This document shows positions 164 to 8,321 of a stretch of 8,683 nt of DNA, in pieces. Each line of letters opens with the position of its first letter. The stretch's first letter is position 1. Made by a program: the position numbers and the translations under genes. Source of the stretch: JBFMHD01 sp040752395 [NCBI: Candidatus Hydrogenedentota bacterium] (lineage in GTDB: Bacteria; JBFMHD01); the NCBI GenBank assembly GCA_040752395.1, contig JBFMHD010000120.1, forward strand, positions 1-8,683. The letters run 5' to 3'. The notes under the pieces were generated by a model, which saw nothing but the letters and a program-made list of their open reading frames with translations, was not told where the DNA came from and ran no database searches.

Positions 164-244
164 AAAACCTTTTTTTAATAAAAAATGCTTGACAGAGATA
201 CGAAATAAAAACAAAATATGCAAGTTTTTGTAAAAAAAGGTTTT
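164..244. repeat. 14-bp inverted repeat around top6B promoter
   Basis: AAAACCTTTTTTTA at 164-177 is exactly repeated in inverted form as TAAAAAAAGGTTTT at 231-244. The 53 bases between the arms contain the best promoter candidate for the top6 operon. The right arm ends 7 bases before the top6B start codon and includes the only Shine-Dalgarno-like bases (AAGG, 237-240). It could be a paired operator or, in a longer transcript, a stem hiding the ribosome site. Both roles are inference. Confidence 0.6.
189..217 (+). promoter_or_regulatory. Candidate sigma70-type promoter of top6B-top6A
   Basis: TTGACA at 189-194 matches the -35 consensus exactly. It is followed after 17 bases by CAAAAT at 212-217, which matches 4 of 6 positions of TATAAT. 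Transcription would begin near 224, leaving a leader of about 28 bases before the ATG at 252. Spacing and strand fit the downstream operon, but the region is AT-rich and the -10 is only fair. Confidence 0.45.
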
Positions 245-251
245 ATATTCT

Positions 252-1823
252 ATGCAGAGTAAAACAAATGTTCTTACAGCTGAAGATATGGCTTTGATGC
301 AACGAGAGATATCTGTCTCTGAGTTTTTTGCTAAAAACAGACACCTTCTTGGTTTTGATAATCCGCAAAAAGCATTACTTATGGCAGTGAAAGAGGCATG
401 TGATAACTCGCTTGATGCCTGCGAAGAAGCAAGGATTCTCCCTGAACTATATATTGAAATAAAGCAACTTGGAGAAGATAGATTTATAGTCTCAGTTGAG
501 GATAATGGTCCTGGTATAGTTAGAGATGCTATCCCGAATATATTTGGTAAACTCTTATATGGTTCAAAATTTCATGCGATGAAACAGACACGCGGGCAAC
601 AAGGCATCGGCATCTCATCAGCTGCATTATACGGTCAACTGACAACAGGGAAACCAATTAAAATAATATCAAAGACTCGTAAAGATAAGCCTGCACATTA
701 TTTTGAGATACACATTGATACAAATAAAAACAGACCTGAGATAATAAAAGATGAAGTAGTTTCATGGAAAAAAGAGCATGGTACCAGAGTCGAGATCGAG
801 CTCGAGGGAAAATTTTATCGTGGTAAACATTCCATAGATAATTATCTGCGTCAGACAGCTATTTCTAATCCGCACGTAAAAATTACATACCAACCACCTG
901 ATACTGAGGAATTAGTTGTATATAAAAGAAGCGTTCAGGAGTTACCAGTTGAACCGTTGTCCATTAAACCTCATCCACATGGCATAGAACTCGGAATGCT
1001 TATCTCTATGGCAAAAAACAGTTCTTCAGGATATTTAAAAAGATTTCTACAAACTGATTTTTCTCGTGTCTCAACTAAAATCGCTGAAGAGATAGCAAGA
1101 AGGGCTAATATTGATAGTAAAAAGAAACTATCGTCTATAACAAGGGACGATTTCGATGCTCTTTATAGAGCTATTAATCTTACTAAAATTATGAACCCCG
1201 CAACAAATTGTTTATCACAGATTGGAGAAGAGGGGATACTTAAAGGGTTAAAAGCTGTTATAGAAGCTGATTTTTATTCTGCTGTATCAAGAAGCCCTGC
1301 AGTATATCGTGGTAACCCGTTTATTATTGAAGCAGGGATTGCCTATGGTGGAAAGCAGCCACTTGAAGAACCTGCTGAATTATTAAGGTTTGCAAACCGT
1401 GCACCATTACTCTATCAGCAGTCAGGTTGCGCTATAACAGAGGCTGTGATAAATACCTCATGGAGAAATTATAATCTTGCTCAGCCAAAAGATGCTATGC
1501 CCATAGGACCTTTGACAATTCTTGTCCATATGGCAAGCATCTGGGTACCGTTTACTTCTGAATCAAAAGAATCCATAGCTCATTATCCTGAAATAATAAA
1601 GGAAGTTAAACTTGCGCTGCAGGAGTGTGGAAGAAAGGTTGGTTTACATATTCGAAAAAAGATTCGTCAGGCTGATGAAACAAAAAAACGGTCATACATA
1701 GAAAGATATATACCACAGATTGTAATAGGATTAAAAGAGATATTAAATTTAAAAGAAAAAGAAACGAATAAAACAACGAAAAATCTCTATGTAATACTTG
1801 AAAAAACAAGGAGAAGATATTGA
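252..1823 (+). CDS. top6B: DNA topoisomerase VI subunit B
   Basis: This is the ATPase subunit of topoisomerase VI, the type IIB enzyme that passes one DNA duplex through another using ATP. The 523 residues match the usual length of archaeal Top6B (about 500-550). The N-terminal GHKL ATPase domain (about 1-230) shows the N box with E48 and N52, the DNGPG motif at 84-88, and the glycine-rich lid around TRGQQGIGISSA (113-124). A helix-two-turn-helix region follows at about 231-310, then the transducer domain to about 500, including the NRAPLLYQ segment at 382-389. K439 in the TSESKESIA loop is the probable switch lysine contacting the ATP gamma-phosphate. The ATG at 252 has only a weak AAGG ribosome site 11 bases upstream. 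The gene overlaps top6A by four bases, as expected for subunits made together. I see no disrupted motif. The assignment is firm; presence in a bacterium is the unusual part. Confidence 0.96.
   Translation: MQSKTNVLTAEDMALMQREISVSEFFAKNRHLLGFDNPQKALLMAVKEACDNSLDACEEARILPELYIEIKQLGEDRFIVSVEDNGPGIVRDAIPNIFGKLLYGSKFHAMKQTRGQQGIGISSAALYGQLTTGKPIKIISKTRKDKPAHYFEIHIDTNKNRPEIIKDEVVSWKKEHGTRVEIELEGKFYRGKHSIDNYLRQTAISNPHVKITYQPPDTEELVVYKRSVQELPVEPLSIKPHPHGIELGMLISMAKNSSSGYLKRFLQTDFSRVSTKIAEEIARRANIDSKKKLSSITRDDFDALYRAINLTKIMNPATNCLSQIGEEGILKGLKAVIEADFYSAVSRSPAVYRGNPFIIEAGIAYGGKQPLEEPAELLRFANRAPLLYQQSGCAITEAVINTSWRNYNLAQPKDAMPIGPLTILVHMASIWVPFTSESKESIAHYPEIIKEVKLALQECGRKVGLHIRKKIRQADETKKRSYIERYIPQIVIGLKEILNLKEKETNKTTKNLYVILEKTRRRY
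1808..1813 (+). promoter_or_regulatory. Ribosome binding site fixing the TTG start of top6A
   Basis: AAGGAG at 1808-1813 lies 6 bases before TTG at 1820-1822, within the last codons of top6B. There is no ATG or GTG start in frame nearby, and the next methionines (residues 79-80) would remove conserved sequence. This site therefore decides the start. Confidence 0.8.
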
Positions 1824-2935
1824 AAAGATCAAATGTTATAAAAGATGTTAATCCTGTAAAATATATAAGAGAGACTGCAAACAGCATATATAGTGCAATA
1901 CAAAAAATAAAGAAACCAGAACTCTCTTTTCCTATAAGGGCATTAAATAATGTAAGATATGATGATAAGCGTGGCTATTTTGAGATAGACGACAAAAAGA
2001 AGTTGCGAACTTTAACGGTTTTAACTGTCAAATCATTTGCTCAAGTTTTAAGAATGATGTCGCTATCAAAAGAGCTTGTTAATACCAATGATTTTGCAAC
2101 AAAACGGGATGTGTATTACCAATCCAAAAACTGGGAGGATGCAAAATTTGATGAACAACCTGAATCTGATGAGGTAATGGATGACATTGAAGCATTGTTT
2201 TCCAGCTATGGTGTAAATCGTGAACAACTGCGGTTTTATCCTGAGGAAAAAGGGGGCGATGTTGCAGGGAAATTAATTGTTATAGATTATGACAGAGAGA
2301 CAGGTAAAAAGATAAGGATCGATTGCACGGGGTTTGGTAGCGGAGCATACTCAGTACCTTCAAGTGTTGAGCAACTTAGATTTGAGACAAAGGCAGAATT
2401 TATTCTTGCGATAGAGACAGGTGGTATGTTCCAGCGGTTAGCAAGCCATAAATTCTGGCAAAAAGCAAATTGCATATTAGTTTCAATGGGCGGCGTTCCC
2501 ACAAGAGCCTGCCGCCGCTTTATACGAAGACTATCCGAGGAAACAAACATACCAGTGTACGCATTTGTAGATTGCGACCCATACGGAATAAGTAATATAT
2601 ACCGCACACTTAAAGTAGGTTCGGGCAACGCTGCCCATATTAATAAGTTCTTCTGCGTACCGTGGGCGAGTTTTCTTGGTGTTACACCACAGGATATCAT
2701 AGATTACAAACTGCCAACTCATCCATTAAAAGAGGTTGATATCAAACGAGGAAGAGACGCACTTAAAAATGACCCGTTTTTTATTTATCACAAACCCTGG
2801 GCTGAAGCTATGGGGCAGTTACTTGATATGGGGGTTCGGGCAGAACAGCAGGCACTTGCGAAATGGGGGTTAAACTACGTTATCGATGAATACCTTCCAC
2901 GCAAACTCAAAGCCATCTCGAAATTTCTGCCGTAA
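1820..2935 (+). CDS. top6A: DNA topoisomerase VI subunit A (Spo11-like)
   Basis: This is the DNA-cleaving subunit of topoisomerase VI, homologous to eukaryotic Spo11. Its dimer makes a transient double-strand break with covalent 5'-phosphotyrosyl links. The 371-residue length is normal for the family. The 5Y-CAP winged-helix domain contains TKRDVYY (94-100); by alignment with the Spo11/Top6A motif the second tyrosine, Y100, should be catalytic. The Toprim domain has E199 in AIETGGMF and the DxD pair D251/D253 in FVDCDPYG, the expected magnesium ligands. The C-terminal part includes the conserved GVTPQDI (287-293). Translation starts at TTG, with TTGA at 1820-1823 serving as both this start and the top6B stop, preceded by a good AAGGAG site, so the two genes are probably translationally coupled. 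The stop is only 2 bp from that of the convergent STAS gene. All active-site residues are present, so an active enzyme is expected. Confidence 0.96.
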   Translation: MKRSNVIKDVNPVKYIRETANSIYSAIQKIKKPELSFPIRALNNVRYDDKRGYFEIDDKKKLRTLTVLTVKSFAQVLRMMSLSKELVNTNDFATKRDVYYQSKNWEDAKFDEQPESDEVMDDIEALFSSYGVNREQLRFYPEEKGGDVAGKLIVIDYDRETGKKIRIDCTGFGSGAYSVPSSVEQLRFETKAEFILAIETGGMFQRLASHKFWQKANCILVSMGGVPTRACRRFIRRLSEETNIPVYAFVDCDPYGISNIYRTLKVGSGNAAHINKFFCVPWASFLGVTPQDIIDYKLPTHPLKEVDIKRGRDALKNDPFFIYHKPWAEAMGQLLDMGVRAEQQALAKWGLNYVIDEYLPRKLKAISKFLP

Positions 2936-2937
2936 GG

Positions 2938-3429
2938 TTAGTTCTCTTTATTGATTTTGTTTTCTAAAACACTTCTTAAAGATTCAAATCTCTTAATATT
3001 TGATTCATCGAGTTCTTCAAGCTCTTTATGGGCTTTTAATATAAAACTTGCATCCTCTTTTTTTATATCCGAAGAGATTTCCATTATCTCTTCAAGTATA
3101 GCTTCAAACATTTGTTTTTCAAGGATAGAAGCAAACTTTGTAATCCCCATTGTTTTTAAAGTTTCATAAACATCTTTGCTGGTTTCAACGATAATAAGAT
3201 TCCTATTGAGCTGTTTAAATTTTTTTAATGCGTAAGCAATGATACCAACAAACGTGCTGTCAAGATATTCGCACTCACCAAGATTTAAATAGCATTCTCT
3301 CCACTCTTTGAATGATAGGTCATCAATAAGGTTTCTAAAAACACGGGCATAATTCCATGTCCCGCGACCAACAATCTTTATGACAATATATCCGTTAGTT
3401 GAACCTATAAAAACCCTACAGGTATCCAT
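2938..3429 (-). CDS. STAS-domain anti-sigma factor antagonist with C-terminal extension
   Basis: This is a probable cytoplasmic regulator of the SpoIIAA/RsbV type, which binds an anti-sigma kinase and is switched off by phosphorylation. The STAS domain covers roughly residues 1-105 of 163. The segment LNLGECEYLDSTFVGI (48-63) is the characteristic strand-loop-helix, and S58 or T59 in the DST motif is the likely phospho-acceptor. The remaining 55-60 residues are charged and helical, a tail absent from minimal antagonists (about 110 residues), perhaps a dimerisation or partner segment. GTG at 3432 and ATG at 3429 are adjacent. I chose the ATG because GAGG lies 5 bases from it but only 2 from the GTG. 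The gene starts 15 bases after the amylase stop, so it is probably cotranscribed with the amylase. No kinase, phosphatase or sigma factor is in the window, so its target is unknown. Confidence 0.85.
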   Translation of the reverse strand: MDTCRVFIGSTNGYIVIKIVGRGTWNYARVFRNLIDDLSFKEWRECYLNLGECEYLDSTFVGIIAYALKKFKQLNRNLIIVETSKDVYETLKTMGITKFASILEKQMFEAILEEIMEISSDIKKEDASFILKAHKELEELDESNIKRFESLRSVLENKINKEN

Positions 3430-3434
3430 CACTT

Positions 3435-3444: not shown

Positions 3445-5859
3445 CTAACCCTCACTCTCAATTTTATATATCGCTACACTTTTTGGTGAGATGAAAAAAG
3501 TGATACCTTCAGTTGTAGAAGATGTGGTTCCATCCGAGCCGTATAAGGGCTCAAGCGGAGCCTCAATTATCTCATCAAATATATCAGCTTTTAAAACCAC
3601 TTTGTTATCAGTTGTTTTTGAGTTATTGTACACTATCAGTAAATCATCATTAAAATAAGTTTTACGGATCACCCACAGCTCATTGCTTGAATATATTTCC
3701 CGTATCACACCCCGTCTTAAAGCATCATGGTCTTTTCTTAAATGAAGCAGAGAAGCTACTTTTTCAAATGTTGCCTTCTGATATTTATCCCATTTATCCT
3801 CAAAGAGCATCATTCTTCTATTATCTGGGTCAGCTGCACCTGTTAATCCTATCTCATCACCATAATATATCATTGGTATCCCATTTAATGTTAGTAAGAA
3901 CCCGAATGCAAACTGGATTTTCTTATACATCGCTTCAGCTTTTTGTGGGTCGGTTTTATCAATCTGCGGCGGTTTTGTAAACGCAAGTTCTTTCTCTTTA
4001 TTCGCATCAAAATTTTTATCAGCATAAGCAATGAATCTTGAAAAATCATGGTTTCCTAAGAGAGGGGATACTTGATAGATATTATATATTTTATTAGATA
4101 ATAGATATTCCTCTCTTAATCTATCTAAGTCAATCTTTTCATAAGCAAAAAAATCACGGATAGACCAGTATAGCGGAAAATCAAATTGACTATCGAGTTT
4201 GGTGTATTTGATATATTGTTTGATTCGTTCTCTTGAATCTATAGTTTCACCAACCATAAAGAACCTTTTATTTTGCGGTATCTCAATCTCTCGAACAATC
4301 TCTTTTCTTAAATCAATAAAAAAGTTTTCTGGTATATGTTTTACAGCGTCCACTCTGAACCCATCGATGTTAAATTCTTTTATCCACCATATTGCATTCT
4401 CAACCATCATATTTTTTACCGCTTCTTTGTCATAATCAAACGATGGTATAAACTCGTCAAACCACGTTGTAAATGGATATTTATCAAATAATCTAAGGTT
4501 TTTGGTTCCGTCAGGAAGAAGTAAGGGAGTAAACCAGTCAGGATGCTCATTATAGATATCACTTTCTTTATGTATATGATTGAATACTATATCAAAAATA
4601 ATTTTTATATTCTTGCTATGTGCTACGTCTATCAATGTTTTAAGGTCATCCTTTGAACCAAAATGTTCCTCAATCTCTGTTAAAGATTTGGGCCAGTAAC
4701 CGTGGTAACTAGTAAACTTTCTATGAGGTGGTAGAGAATCTATATAAGCTCCTTCAACATTATCAATAACTGGTGAAATCCAGAGAACATCCACTCCTAA
4801 TCTTGAGAAATAGCCTTCTTCTATCTTTTTAATTATACCTTTAAAATCACCACCCTGATAATTTGCGATCTCTGCAAGCTCTTCATCAATAACAGGGGTA
4901 TCGTTCGCAGGATCATTATTGCAAAATCTATCTGTAAAAACAAAATATATAACTCTATCTCGCCAGTCAGGAAGATTAGTCTCTTTATATTCCTTAAATC
5001 TGTATTCGCCTATGGCACCATTATTATCAAAGACCCACAATTTTAAATCAATTTTATCAGCTGGCACTATCTTGATATGTATATAAAGATCATATTTATC
5101 ATCATCTATTCTATCTTCATATATTTTTATATACTCAAAAGGTTCGTTATTATAGAGTGCTTTAACATTTATATCTTCAGAACTAACATTTTCAATTAAA
5201 AATATATATTCTATATTATTCTTATCCCTGATAATTCTTTTATAAGGAATGATTTTAAACTCTGCTATAGCACCTACTTCAATAACAGAATTAAACCCGC
5301 CAAAGCCATCAGGTGATTTTAGTGTAGCGTTCGGGTCAGGCACCCATTGCGAGCCATCTATAACAAATTTATACGCATAACTACCAGCCGGTAATTCCTT
5401 TGTTAGCTCATATATCCCATCGTTATTCTCATCTTTTAATAAATCAGCTTTATTATTCCAGGCATTAAATTCCCCGGCAACACTTACACTTGATACAGGT
5501 TTACCCGGTGCGAACCTGAATAATACCACCTTTTTCTCTACACAATAAAAAGGTACAAAGAGGACCGCTTTATCATCTATTGAGTTTTTTAAAGTGCAAC
5601 CAATTAGATAAAACCCAGTATTTTCACTTTTGATTTTTAAGTAGTCTCCATCTAAATTAATTTCACATTCGTTATCTAGTACCTCATCAATAACAAGCTC
5701 GTTTTTATCCGAGAGATTTATTACATAGTCTTTTAAATCTATGCTTTTTACAACATTTTTTTCAGCTTTTATTAATTCAGGCATATCAGTTAACAAAGTC
5801 TGAGCATTAAGACTTGAGAAAAAAATTAATACTACAAATAATAAAAACAAATTTTTCAT
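3445..5859 (-). CDS. Secreted GH13 alpha-amylase family protein with CBM48-like domain
   Basis: This predicted exported glycoside hydrolase acts on alpha-1,4-glucans. Residues 1-19 form a signal peptide with hydrophobic core LFLLFVVLIFF and likely cleavage at LNA|Q; there is no lipobox cysteine. Residues 21-108 look like a beta-sandwich of unknown type with C65, C88 and C106. Residues 111-195 resemble a CBM48/isoamylase N-terminal module (VAGEFNAWN, YAYKFVIDG, WVPDPNA). Residues 196-295 are a further beta-rich region. The catalytic barrel begins near 300. GH13 motifs are DIVFNH (423-428), GFRVDAVKH (500-508) with nucleophile D504 and R502, VGETID (536-541) with acid/base E538, and GNHD (602-605) with D605. 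All catalytic residues are intact. A C-terminal beta domain follows from about 725. The ATG has AAAGGAG 9 bases upstream and its own promoter. Exact specificity (alpha-amylase, cyclomaltodextrinase or neopullulanase) cannot be read from motifs alone. Confidence 0.93.
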   Translation of the reverse strand: MKNLFLLFVVLIFFSSLNAQTLLTDMPELIKAEKNVVKSIDLKDYVINLSDKNELVIDEVLDNECEINLDGDYLKIKSENTGFYLIGCTLKNSIDDKAVLFVPFYCVEKKVVLFRFAPGKPVSSVSVAGEFNAWNNKADLLKDENNDGIYELTKELPAGSYAYKFVIDGSQWVPDPNATLKSPDGFGGFNSVIEVGAIAEFKIIPYKRIIRDKNNIEYIFLIENVSSEDINVKALYNNEPFEYIKIYEDRIDDDKYDLYIHIKIVPADKIDLKLWVFDNNGAIGEYRFKEYKETNLPDWRDRVIYFVFTDRFCNNDPANDTPVIDEELAEIANYQGGDFKGIIKKIEEGYFSRLGVDVLWISPVIDNVEGAYIDSLPPHRKFTSYHGYWPKSLTEIEEHFGSKDDLKTLIDVAHSKNIKIIFDIVFNHIHKESDIYNEHPDWFTPLLLPDGTKNLRLFDKYPFTTWFDEFIPSFDYDKEAVKNMMVENAIWWIKEFNIDGFRVDAVKHIPENFFIDLRKEIVREIEIPQNKRFFMVGETIDSRERIKQYIKYTKLDSQFDFPLYWSIRDFFAYEKIDLDRLREEYLLSNKIYNIYQVSPLLGNHDFSRFIAYADKNFDANKEKELAFTKPPQIDKTDPQKAEAMYKKIQFAFGFLLTLNGIPMIYYGDEIGLTGAADPDNRRMMLFEDKWDKYQKATFEKVASLLHLRKDHDALRRGVIREIYSSNELWVIRKTYFNDDLLIVYNNSKTTDNKVVLKADIFDEIIEAPLEPLYGSDGTTSSTTEGITFFISPKSVAIYKIESEG

Positions 5860-5975: not shown

Positions 5976-6236
5976 TTAATTTTTTTTTGTTTCATCTGGT
6001 TTTGTACTAGGGGTTGTCTCTTGTTTTTCTTTTTTTAGTTTCTCTTTATAATCTTTAGAGCGATAATCTGTTATATAAAATCCGTTGCCTTTGAATAAGA
6101 AGCCTCCACCACCGCTTATTAATCTTACAACCTTAGCTTTACATTTGGGACACCTTTTTAGAGGTTCATCTTTTATACTTTGAAATAACTCAAAAGAGTA
6201 TTTACATTTCGTGCATTTATATTCATAAGTAGGCAT
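5976..6236 (-). CDS. FmdB-family small zinc-ribbon protein
   Basis: This is an 86-residue member of the FmdB family of putative regulatory zinc ribbons. The start MPTYEYKCTKC is diagnostic, and the two CxxC knuckles (C8/C11 and C29/C32) should bind one zinc ion. The glycine-rich GGGG (43-46) followed by FKGNGFYITDYR (48-59) is the usual family continuation. The tail from about 64 is lysine- and threonine-rich and probably disordered. The name comes from a protein linked to formamidase gene regulation, but for most members the role is unknown, so no specific function is claimed. The gene lies 156 bp downstream of groEL and 116 bp upstream of the amylase. The 15 bases before the ATG contain no purine-rich ribosome site, unlike groES, groEL and the amylase. 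A promoter candidate lies just upstream. Confidence 0.9.
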   Translation of the reverse strand: MPTYEYKCTKCKYSFELFQSIKDEPLKRCPKCKAKVVRLISGGGGFLFKGNGFYITDYRSKDYKEKLKKEKQETTPSTKPDETKKN

Positions 6237-6392: not shown

Positions 6393-8033
<1,641 letters not shown>

Positions 8034-8321
8034 TTATTCAACTATACCGAGAATATCTTCTTCTTTGAGTATCAGATATTCCTCATCATCGAGTTTAATC
8101 TCAGTCCCGGAATATTTGCCAAACAGAATCTTATCACCTTTCTTTACATCTATAGGGATAACTTTTCCGTTCTCATCCTTTTTACCAGGCCCTACAGCAA
8201 TGACCTCACCTTCCTGTGGTTTTTCTTTAGCAGTATCAGGTATAATAATACCGCCTTTTTTTACTTCTTTTTCTTCGAGCCTTTTTACAAGCACCCGATC
8301 ACCTAAAGGTTTAATTTTCAT
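8034..8321 (-). CDS. groES: Co-chaperonin GroES (Hsp10)
   Basis: This is the lid of the GroEL chamber, forming a heptameric dome in the cytoplasm. The 95-residue length is typical. The N-terminal [13 protein letters not shown] is characteristic. The mobile loop (about 17-35) contains GGIIIPDTA, whose I25-I26-I27 segment inserts into the GroEL apical domain. The C-terminal half carries GEVIAVGPG (38-46) and the closing [12 protein letters not shown]. The ATG at 8319-8321 has AGGAGGG 10 bases upstream on the minus strand, and it is the first gene of the groES-groEL operon. No CIRCE operator (TTAGCACTC, 9-base gap, inverted copy) is visible in the 362 bases upstream, so control by HrcA at that site is not supported. 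Confidence 0.99.

Follow-up and report, generated by a model that had tools for sequence, protein, structure and literature searches.

The 8683 nt contig JBFMHD010000120.1, from the assembly GCA_040752395.1 of a Candidatus Hydrogenedentota bacterium, carries adjacent topB and topA genes for the two subunits of a topoisomerase VI (topo VI), a DNA-untangling enzyme known chiefly from archaea. The contig was analysed over its whole length and is referred to here as the window. Comparison of the two predicted proteins with protein families, solved structures and the genomes of relatives suggests, with a probability of about 0.72, that the pair is a working bacterial A2B2 topo VI, and that it most likely serves as a decatenase beside gyrase in the place of topoisomerase IV (topo IV). 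We infer both the activity and the decatenase role, and also that the window's host has gyrase and lacks topo IV. In an A2B2 type IIB topoisomerase of this kind, two B subunits would bind ATP and clamp the T-segment, two A subunits would cleave both strands of the G-segment using Y100 and a Toprim metal site (E199/D251/D253), after which the T-segment would pass through the cleaved G-segment. Alongside gyrase, topo VI could thereby act as a dedicated chromosome decatenase, filling the place that topo IV holds elsewhere.

Subunits and catalytic residues

The topB gene (252..1823, forward strand) begins with ATG and encodes 523 aa that include a GHKL ATPase domain, a putative H2TH region and a transducer domain. 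The topA gene (1820..2935, forward strand), the start of which overlaps the topB stop by 4 nt, begins with TTG and encodes 371 aa that include a winged helix (with Y100) and a Toprim domain (with E199, D251 and D253). An earlier, sequence-only reading of this DNA had proposed a complete, intact topo VI operon at 252–2935, and this was borne out: the coordinates are exact, both genes are intact, and each protein passes Pfam models of its subunit. The B subunit scored 697.8 bits against NF003218 (cut-off 274) and 553.8 bits against TIGR01052 (cut-off 380.7) in NCBIfam, and in Pfam it passed HATPase_c and matched Topo-VIb_trans (PF09239) with 195.7 bits (cut-off 24). The putative H2TH region aligns throughout with the B subunit of Methanosarcina mazei, and its sole Pfam match, to NFACT_N at residues 256–309, scored 22.0 bits and is under the cut-off of 31. 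The A subunit was over the cut-off for TP6A_N, Topo_VI_alpha and the TOP6A-Spo11 Toprim domain (PF04406, PF20768 and PF21180). None of the proteins in the window had a Pfam match to PF00521 or PF00204.

The window A subunit was under the cut-off for all six NCBIfam topA models (NF003332–NF003337), the best being NF003337 with 456.4 bits (cut-off 675). The A subunits of two relatives, in genomes G075 and G157, were likewise under the NF003337 cut-off, with 477.1 and 447.8 bits, respectively. The window A subunit is clearly a Top6A, but falls beyond the curated NCBIfam subfamilies. The model names are themselves a trap, as five of the six carry the NCBI description 'topoisomerase IV subunit A'.

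The catalytic motifs listed in the earlier reading, namely the GHKL boxes in B and Y100, E199 and D251/D253 in A, were all found when the subunits were aligned with solved chains. Y100, E199, D251 and D253 of the A subunit are identical letters in the chains of Methanocaldococcus jannaschii, M. mazei and Saccharolobus shibatae. Across 27 A rows, Y100 is kept in 26, with a gap in one partial row, and the three acidic residues are kept in all 27. In the B subunit, E48, N52, D84, G86, G88, G115, G118, G120 and K439 are identical in two solved B chains, and all nine are invariant across the 25 rows. The catalytic role of these positions in A and B is taken, in part, to be that known for the topo VI of M. 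jannaschii and of M. mazei. In M. mazei B the DNA-contact motif is WKxY; it is WRNY in the window, and W[KR]xY was present in each of the 25 B rows. This motif is reported to contact DNA and to be required for relaxation (PMC13040014).

Relatives, gyrase and topoisomerase IV

When the window B subunit was used to query genome contigs, two loci were returned, in metagenome-assembled genomes (MAGs) labelled Gemmatimonadetes and Candidatus Eisenbacteria, with 58% identity. In the phylum of G001, the genome with the Eisenbacteria locus, topB and topA were present in seven of seven genomes sampled. A 98-genome sample contained topA in 10 genomes, including G075, and topB was found, at 62% identity, in two of two genomes sampled from the G075 phylum. 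Topo VI thus behaves like a core gene in two small phyla (9/9 genomes sampled). In a sample of 386 genomes, topA was detected in 18 (E-values up to 1e-3) and topB in the identical 18 (E-values up to 1e-20). These genomes are probably bacterial, having been sampled as kin of bacterial MAGs; a GroEL match was found in 369 of the 386 and a GyrA/ParC match in 378. The A tree grouped the window with G075 and G099 (support 95/98).

The bacterial setting proposed in the earlier reading therefore stands, with the nearest kin, in G075, at 77% identity for A and 62% for B, while its description of topo VI as sporadic in Bacteria is weakened. Any novelty of the operon as such has largely gone, as a bacterial topo VI clade is already described: Allen and Maxwell (2024; PMC11302465) reported clusters of the enzyme across 17 bacterial families, with one cluster near Methanococcales. 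The window operon is one more case of this known bacterial topo VI. Our literature search, mostly of open-access articles, returned no paper joining Eisenbacteria with topo VI.

Among the 386 genomes, eight had no PF00521 (GyrA/ParC) gene and 87 had two or more. Exactly one was present in each of the 18 topo VI genomes in this sample, and in each of the 22 topo VI genomes examined overall. At the aligned place, the PF00521 proteins of all 22 genomes contain a Q-x-RGG-x-G box, termed GyrA-box-like here by comparison with what we take to be the canonical GyrA-box letters. This single-gene pattern extends the gyrase-without-topo IV picture of PMC11302465, in which gyrase was found in all 17 topo VI families and topo IV was missing outside Pseudomonadota and Terrabacteria. 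M. mazei topo VI is a preferential decatenase (PMC8837201) and complements a parE-ts Escherichia coli, a result cited as unpublished data in PMC11302465. Taken together, the single GyrA-like gene and the data of these two articles favour decatenation beside gyrase as the probable role of the window enzyme.

Topo VI could instead be an auxiliary and dispensable third type II enzyme, present beside both gyrase and topo IV. Seven bacterial families do possess all three enzymes (PMC11302465), and the gyrase and topo IV counts come from genomes other than the window's. However, the single GyrA/ParC-family gene with its GyrA-box-like motif in all 22 topo VI genomes examined, and the presence of topo VI in every genome sampled from two phyla, which is unlike a sporadic accessory gene, make an auxiliary role unlikely.

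Several points nonetheless weigh against a decatenase that has taken the place of topo IV. The probability that a random draw of 18 genomes would include none with two or more PF00521 genes is 0.009, but this value treats related genomes as independent, depends on the sampling rule and can be taken only as a hint. Most genomes that lack topo VI likewise have one PF00521 gene (273/368), so that a single gene does not on its own indicate a gap filled by topo VI. A stricter GyrA-box pattern, fixed beforehand, was present in only 11 of the 22 genomes (among the frames listed), and for the rest the assignment of the single gene as a probable GyrA is fair but not firm. The inventory is a count of PF00521 alone, in genomes other than the window's. 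The two small phyla, with topo VI in 9/9 genomes and a single GyrA/ParC-family gene in each, are good lineages in which to test whether bacterial topo VI replaces topo IV.

No accessory protein was found in the surroundings of topo VI: when the window was compared with 18 loci, one of them 4.8 kb and one 12.3 kb, only topB and topA were broadly recurrent among the 15 largest protein clusters. The other clusters were overlapping shadow frames, neighbours common to the Eisenbacteria-like loci L113–L116, a gene found in L066, L113 and L115, and another found in L067 and L107. None of the neighbour genes that recur among relatives' loci lies inside the window. Unlike the adjacent pairs found elsewhere, topA and topB of G157 are on separate contigs (C11, locus L104, and C6, locus L140, respectively). 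The two genes are also unlinked in a circular 560 kb plasmid of Salinibaculum sp. KK48 (L099), where they are approximately 340 kb apart in the coordinates of the record.

Plasmid matches to B comprised three full-length haloarchaeal and two partial proteins, and those to A were three haloarchaeal proteins. Viral contigs contained no relative detectable with the window B subunit alone or with an A profile. A B profile returned two matches, L117 and L118, which belong to the types defined below as c2 and c3, respectively, and neither is of the window's type. Both are IMG/VR contigs, of 34.7 and 482 kb, with topB–topA pairs, and the L118 A subunit is 78% identical to that of G139; these pairs may be carried by phages, or the contigs may be cellular DNA with the wrong label. 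Phage records gave no match to the window A subunit and none to the G139 B subunit.

Histories of the A and B subunits

Before any tree was built, A identities were used to define three groups. Group c1 includes the window and 15 genomes (G001–G007, G031, G075, G099, G157, G179, G215, G294 and G344), c2 includes G092, G180, G183 and G253, and c3 includes G139, G223 and G274. Mean B identities are 64% within c1, 53% within c2 and 54% between c1 and c2, and the corresponding A values are 72%, 56% and 35%. The c1 A subunits are 57% identical to that of M. jannaschii, while c2 A subunits are 41% identical to that of S. shibatae but only 35% identical to those of c1. When alignment columns were resampled with 14 c1 and 4 c2 rows (G157 and G294 left out), the difference between c2–c2 and c1–c2 identities was 20.7 points for A (95% range 16.3 to 24.4) and −1.2 points for B (−3.2 to 0.6).

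In the A tree, a branch (94/95) set c1 apart, M. jannaschii lay immediately outside it, and c2 grouped with S. shibatae (100/99). The A data reject a c1+c2 clade in the approximately unbiased (AU) test, with a P value of 4.2e-5, or 0.012 without M. jannaschii and with viral L117 added. The B tree placed c1 next to c2 (internode approximately 0.1 substitutions), away from M. mazei and the haloarchaea (85/70). The trees for the AU tests were built without the c3 rows and viral L118, and the B trees contained no Methanococcales B subunit. NCBIfam is in accord with the A grouping, as all four c2 A subunits pass NF003333 and the c1 A subunits (window, G075 and G157) score best, under the cut-off, with NF003337. 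As the B subunits of c1 and c2 appear to be one family while their A subunits appear to come from two distant stocks, these comparisons suggest that the A half of bacterial topo VI has been exchanged.

A direct conflict between A and B topologies is only half made, and several results count against an exchange. A c1+c2 clade is rejected with A, but the split seen with A is not rejected with B (AU P values of 0.21 and 0.19), and the S. shibatae B subunit is on a very long branch. The tree program issued a long-branch warning for two A trees. With c3 included, neither the A tree nor the B tree keeps c1 whole (two changes), and in the A tree without M. jannaschii a branch (99/97) sets c1 apart but c2 is not kept whole. 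It is possible, though less likely than not, that no exchange occurred and that whole topo VI operons were transferred twice or more, with the c2 A subunit merely fast on its stem. In its favour, PMC11302465 attributes its two bacterial clusters to two or more transfers of the A and B subunits together, the B trees do not reject the grouping of c2 with Sulfolobus that was seen with A, and these trees contain no Methanococcales B subunit. On the other hand, c2 A subunits are 33% identical to M. mazei A and those of c1 are 35% identical to it, so that c2 A is not obviously accelerated. The closer match of c2 A to S. shibatae than to c1, and B identities that are as high between c1 and c2 as within c2, also count against this explanation.

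The B subunits differ in their C-terminal ends. The window topB ends in a short tail (...ILEKTRRRY) that leaves no room for a C-terminal domain. Past window position 500, 14 of the 16 c1 B subunits have 22–23 residues (23 in the window), and the other two, G157 and the partial G294, have 54 and 39. The B subunits of the window's cluster mostly end in a short conserved tail. The tail is 48–110 residues in five c2 rows, including viral L117, 58–151 in four c3 rows, including viral L118, and 113 and 124 in two haloarchaeal rows. Two PDB rows, the ends of which are missing in the alignment, are uninformative, and the longer tails of c2 and c3 are described here by length. C-terminal extensions of Top6B have been found in gyrase-encoding archaea, never in gyrase-less ones, and linked to gyrase (PMC9348778). 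This link seems not to carry over to c1, because a GyrA-like gene is present yet there is mostly no room for the domain.

Bacterial topo VI may be a mosaic, in which one B family is combined with A subunits from at least two distant archaeal stocks, Methanococcales-like in c1 and Sulfolobus-leaning in c2; the cleavage half would have been swapped under a kept ATPase half, and c1 would lack the B C-terminal domain despite gyrase. We regard the case for this mosaic as evenly balanced. If it is correct, the separate A and B histories would make topo VI more modular than assumed, in vitro combinations of natural A and B pairs could reveal the basis of the fit between the halves, and there would be implications for how Spo11 became able to function with different B partners. 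Among the titles and abstracts listed in a literature search that was mostly of open-access articles, we found no report of A/B exchange in bacterial topo VI. The new parts, of modest novelty, are the A/B mismatch, the presence of topo VI in all sampled genomes of two phyla, and the single GyrA/ParC-family gene.

Surroundings of the operon and comparison with known systems

A Shine–Dalgarno-like AAGGAG (1808..1813, forward strand), identified from the sequence, is 6 nt before the topA TTG, and topB and topA are predicted to be translationally coupled. A weak sigma-70-like promoter candidate, TTGACA-17-CAAAAT (189..217, forward strand), is 34 nt before the topB ATG; promoter-like matches in this region numbered 15, which is not above expectation (shuffled mean 11.9, SD 3.3). 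An imperfect 25 nt inverted repeat (84%; 164–188 and 220–244) flanks the putative promoter, and is a possible operator or transcription-attenuation structure. The intergenic region at 1–130 includes low-complexity strings and an 11 bp hairpin at 105–130 and, by appearance, looks like a dispersed intergenic repeat. An Rfam scan of the window at gathering thresholds returned no matches.

Downstream, a gene for a STAS-domain protein resembling an anti-sigma factor antagonist (2938..3432, reverse strand) is convergent with topA, with 2 nt between the two stop codons, and is outside the topo VI system. It is followed by genes for an alpha-amylase with an N-terminal carbohydrate-binding module (3445–5859) and an FmdB-type zinc ribbon (5976–6236), both convergent to the operon, and by genes for the group I chaperonin GroEL (6393–8018, reverse strand) and GroES (8034–8321, reverse strand), which provide a bacterial context and are likewise outside the topo VI system. 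Pfam matches for these five proteins agree with the bacterial neighbours described in the earlier reading. Its view that the operon resembles its neighbours in composition, and did not obviously arrive recently, holds roughly. G+C at third codon positions is 0.25 in topB, 0.34 in topA and 0.21–0.29 in the five neighbours, and AGA and AGG make up 0.65 of arginine codons in topB, 0.46 in topA, the lowest value, and 0.50–0.75 in the neighbours. Because of its higher third-position G+C and lowest AGA+AGG share, topA deviates slightly from the neighbours.

We considered whether an archaeal topo VI fragment has been falsely joined to bacterial DNA near 2936, or whether the contig comes from an archaeon with a group I GroEL. 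The closest solved relative of the A subunit is archaeal, certain Methanosarcina possess GroEL, and G+C drops across 2936, from 0.43 (2251–2750) to 0.34–0.35 (2751 onward). However, the shift inside the operon is equally large, from 0.31 (1501–2000) to 0.43, and the whole-gene G+C of topA (0.396) matches that of groEL (0.397). The nearest A (77%) and B (62%) subunits are in a clade with two named bacterial MAGs, while identities to M. jannaschii A and M. mazei B are 56% and 47%. The convergent stops are only 2 nt apart, and the GroES–GroEL–FmdB order was found again in 3 of 30 GroEL loci. Both explanations are very improbable. As far as the sequence tells, no archaeal–bacterial join at 2936 is needed to explain the contig, given its bacterial neighbours and the place of its closest kin in a clade with named bacterial MAGs.

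The three further loci with the GroES–GroEL–FmdB order are in G136, G149 and G285 (L042, L049 and L051), two of which are in one phylum, and the shared order is a possible hint of host kinship. The best GroEL matches among the 386 genomes were at most 74% identical, among the matches listed. No topA match was found in the phyla of these three genomes (2 and 50 genomes, with no positive control within the phylum). The match to G149 GroEL contains one TGA and one TAG, consistent with a pseudogene, sequencing errors or recoding.

Bacterial topo IV (ParC/ParE), the role of which is proposed here for topo VI, and gyrase are type IIA enzymes, unlike the window proteins. Spo11 shares domains with the window A subunit, and topo VIII is the other type IIB enzyme (PMC11302465). 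In relation to topo VIII and to the topo VIB-like partner of Spo11, the window B subunit has the full GHKL and transducer domains and is over the topo VI-B equivalog cut-offs. Beside topo VIII, we note that the window topo VI neighbours housekeeping-type genes, on a contig that does not by itself establish the kind of replicon.

Among solved structures, M. mazei topo VI (2q2e and 9o0g) has the same domain order and provides the best relative of the window B subunit (494.3 bits, 47% identity). The 621 aa B subunit of M. mazei has a C-terminal domain that starts at residue 511 (PMC13040014), while the window B subunit extends only 23 aa past position 500, and M. mazei A is only 36% identical to the window A subunit. 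M. jannaschii Top6A (1d3y) is the best solved relative of window A (359.8 bits, 56% identity over 300 aligned residues) and has the same active site, but is archaeal and branches just outside the 16 c1 A subunits (94/95).

The closest system is the bacterial topo VI of PMC11302465. The Eisenbacteria and Gemmatimonadetes MAGs met here are outside the 17 families in its Figure 6 legend, and no A/B mismatch of the kind found here is reported in the available text, where the Bdellovibrio B subunit is called anomalous (discordant). It has the same two subunits as the window, and the window A subunit is nearest to Methanococcales among the archaea compared, like one of the two clusters described there. 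The cases outside Pseudomonadota and Terrabacteria have gyrase without topo IV, and the window's relatives seem to be alike in this respect.

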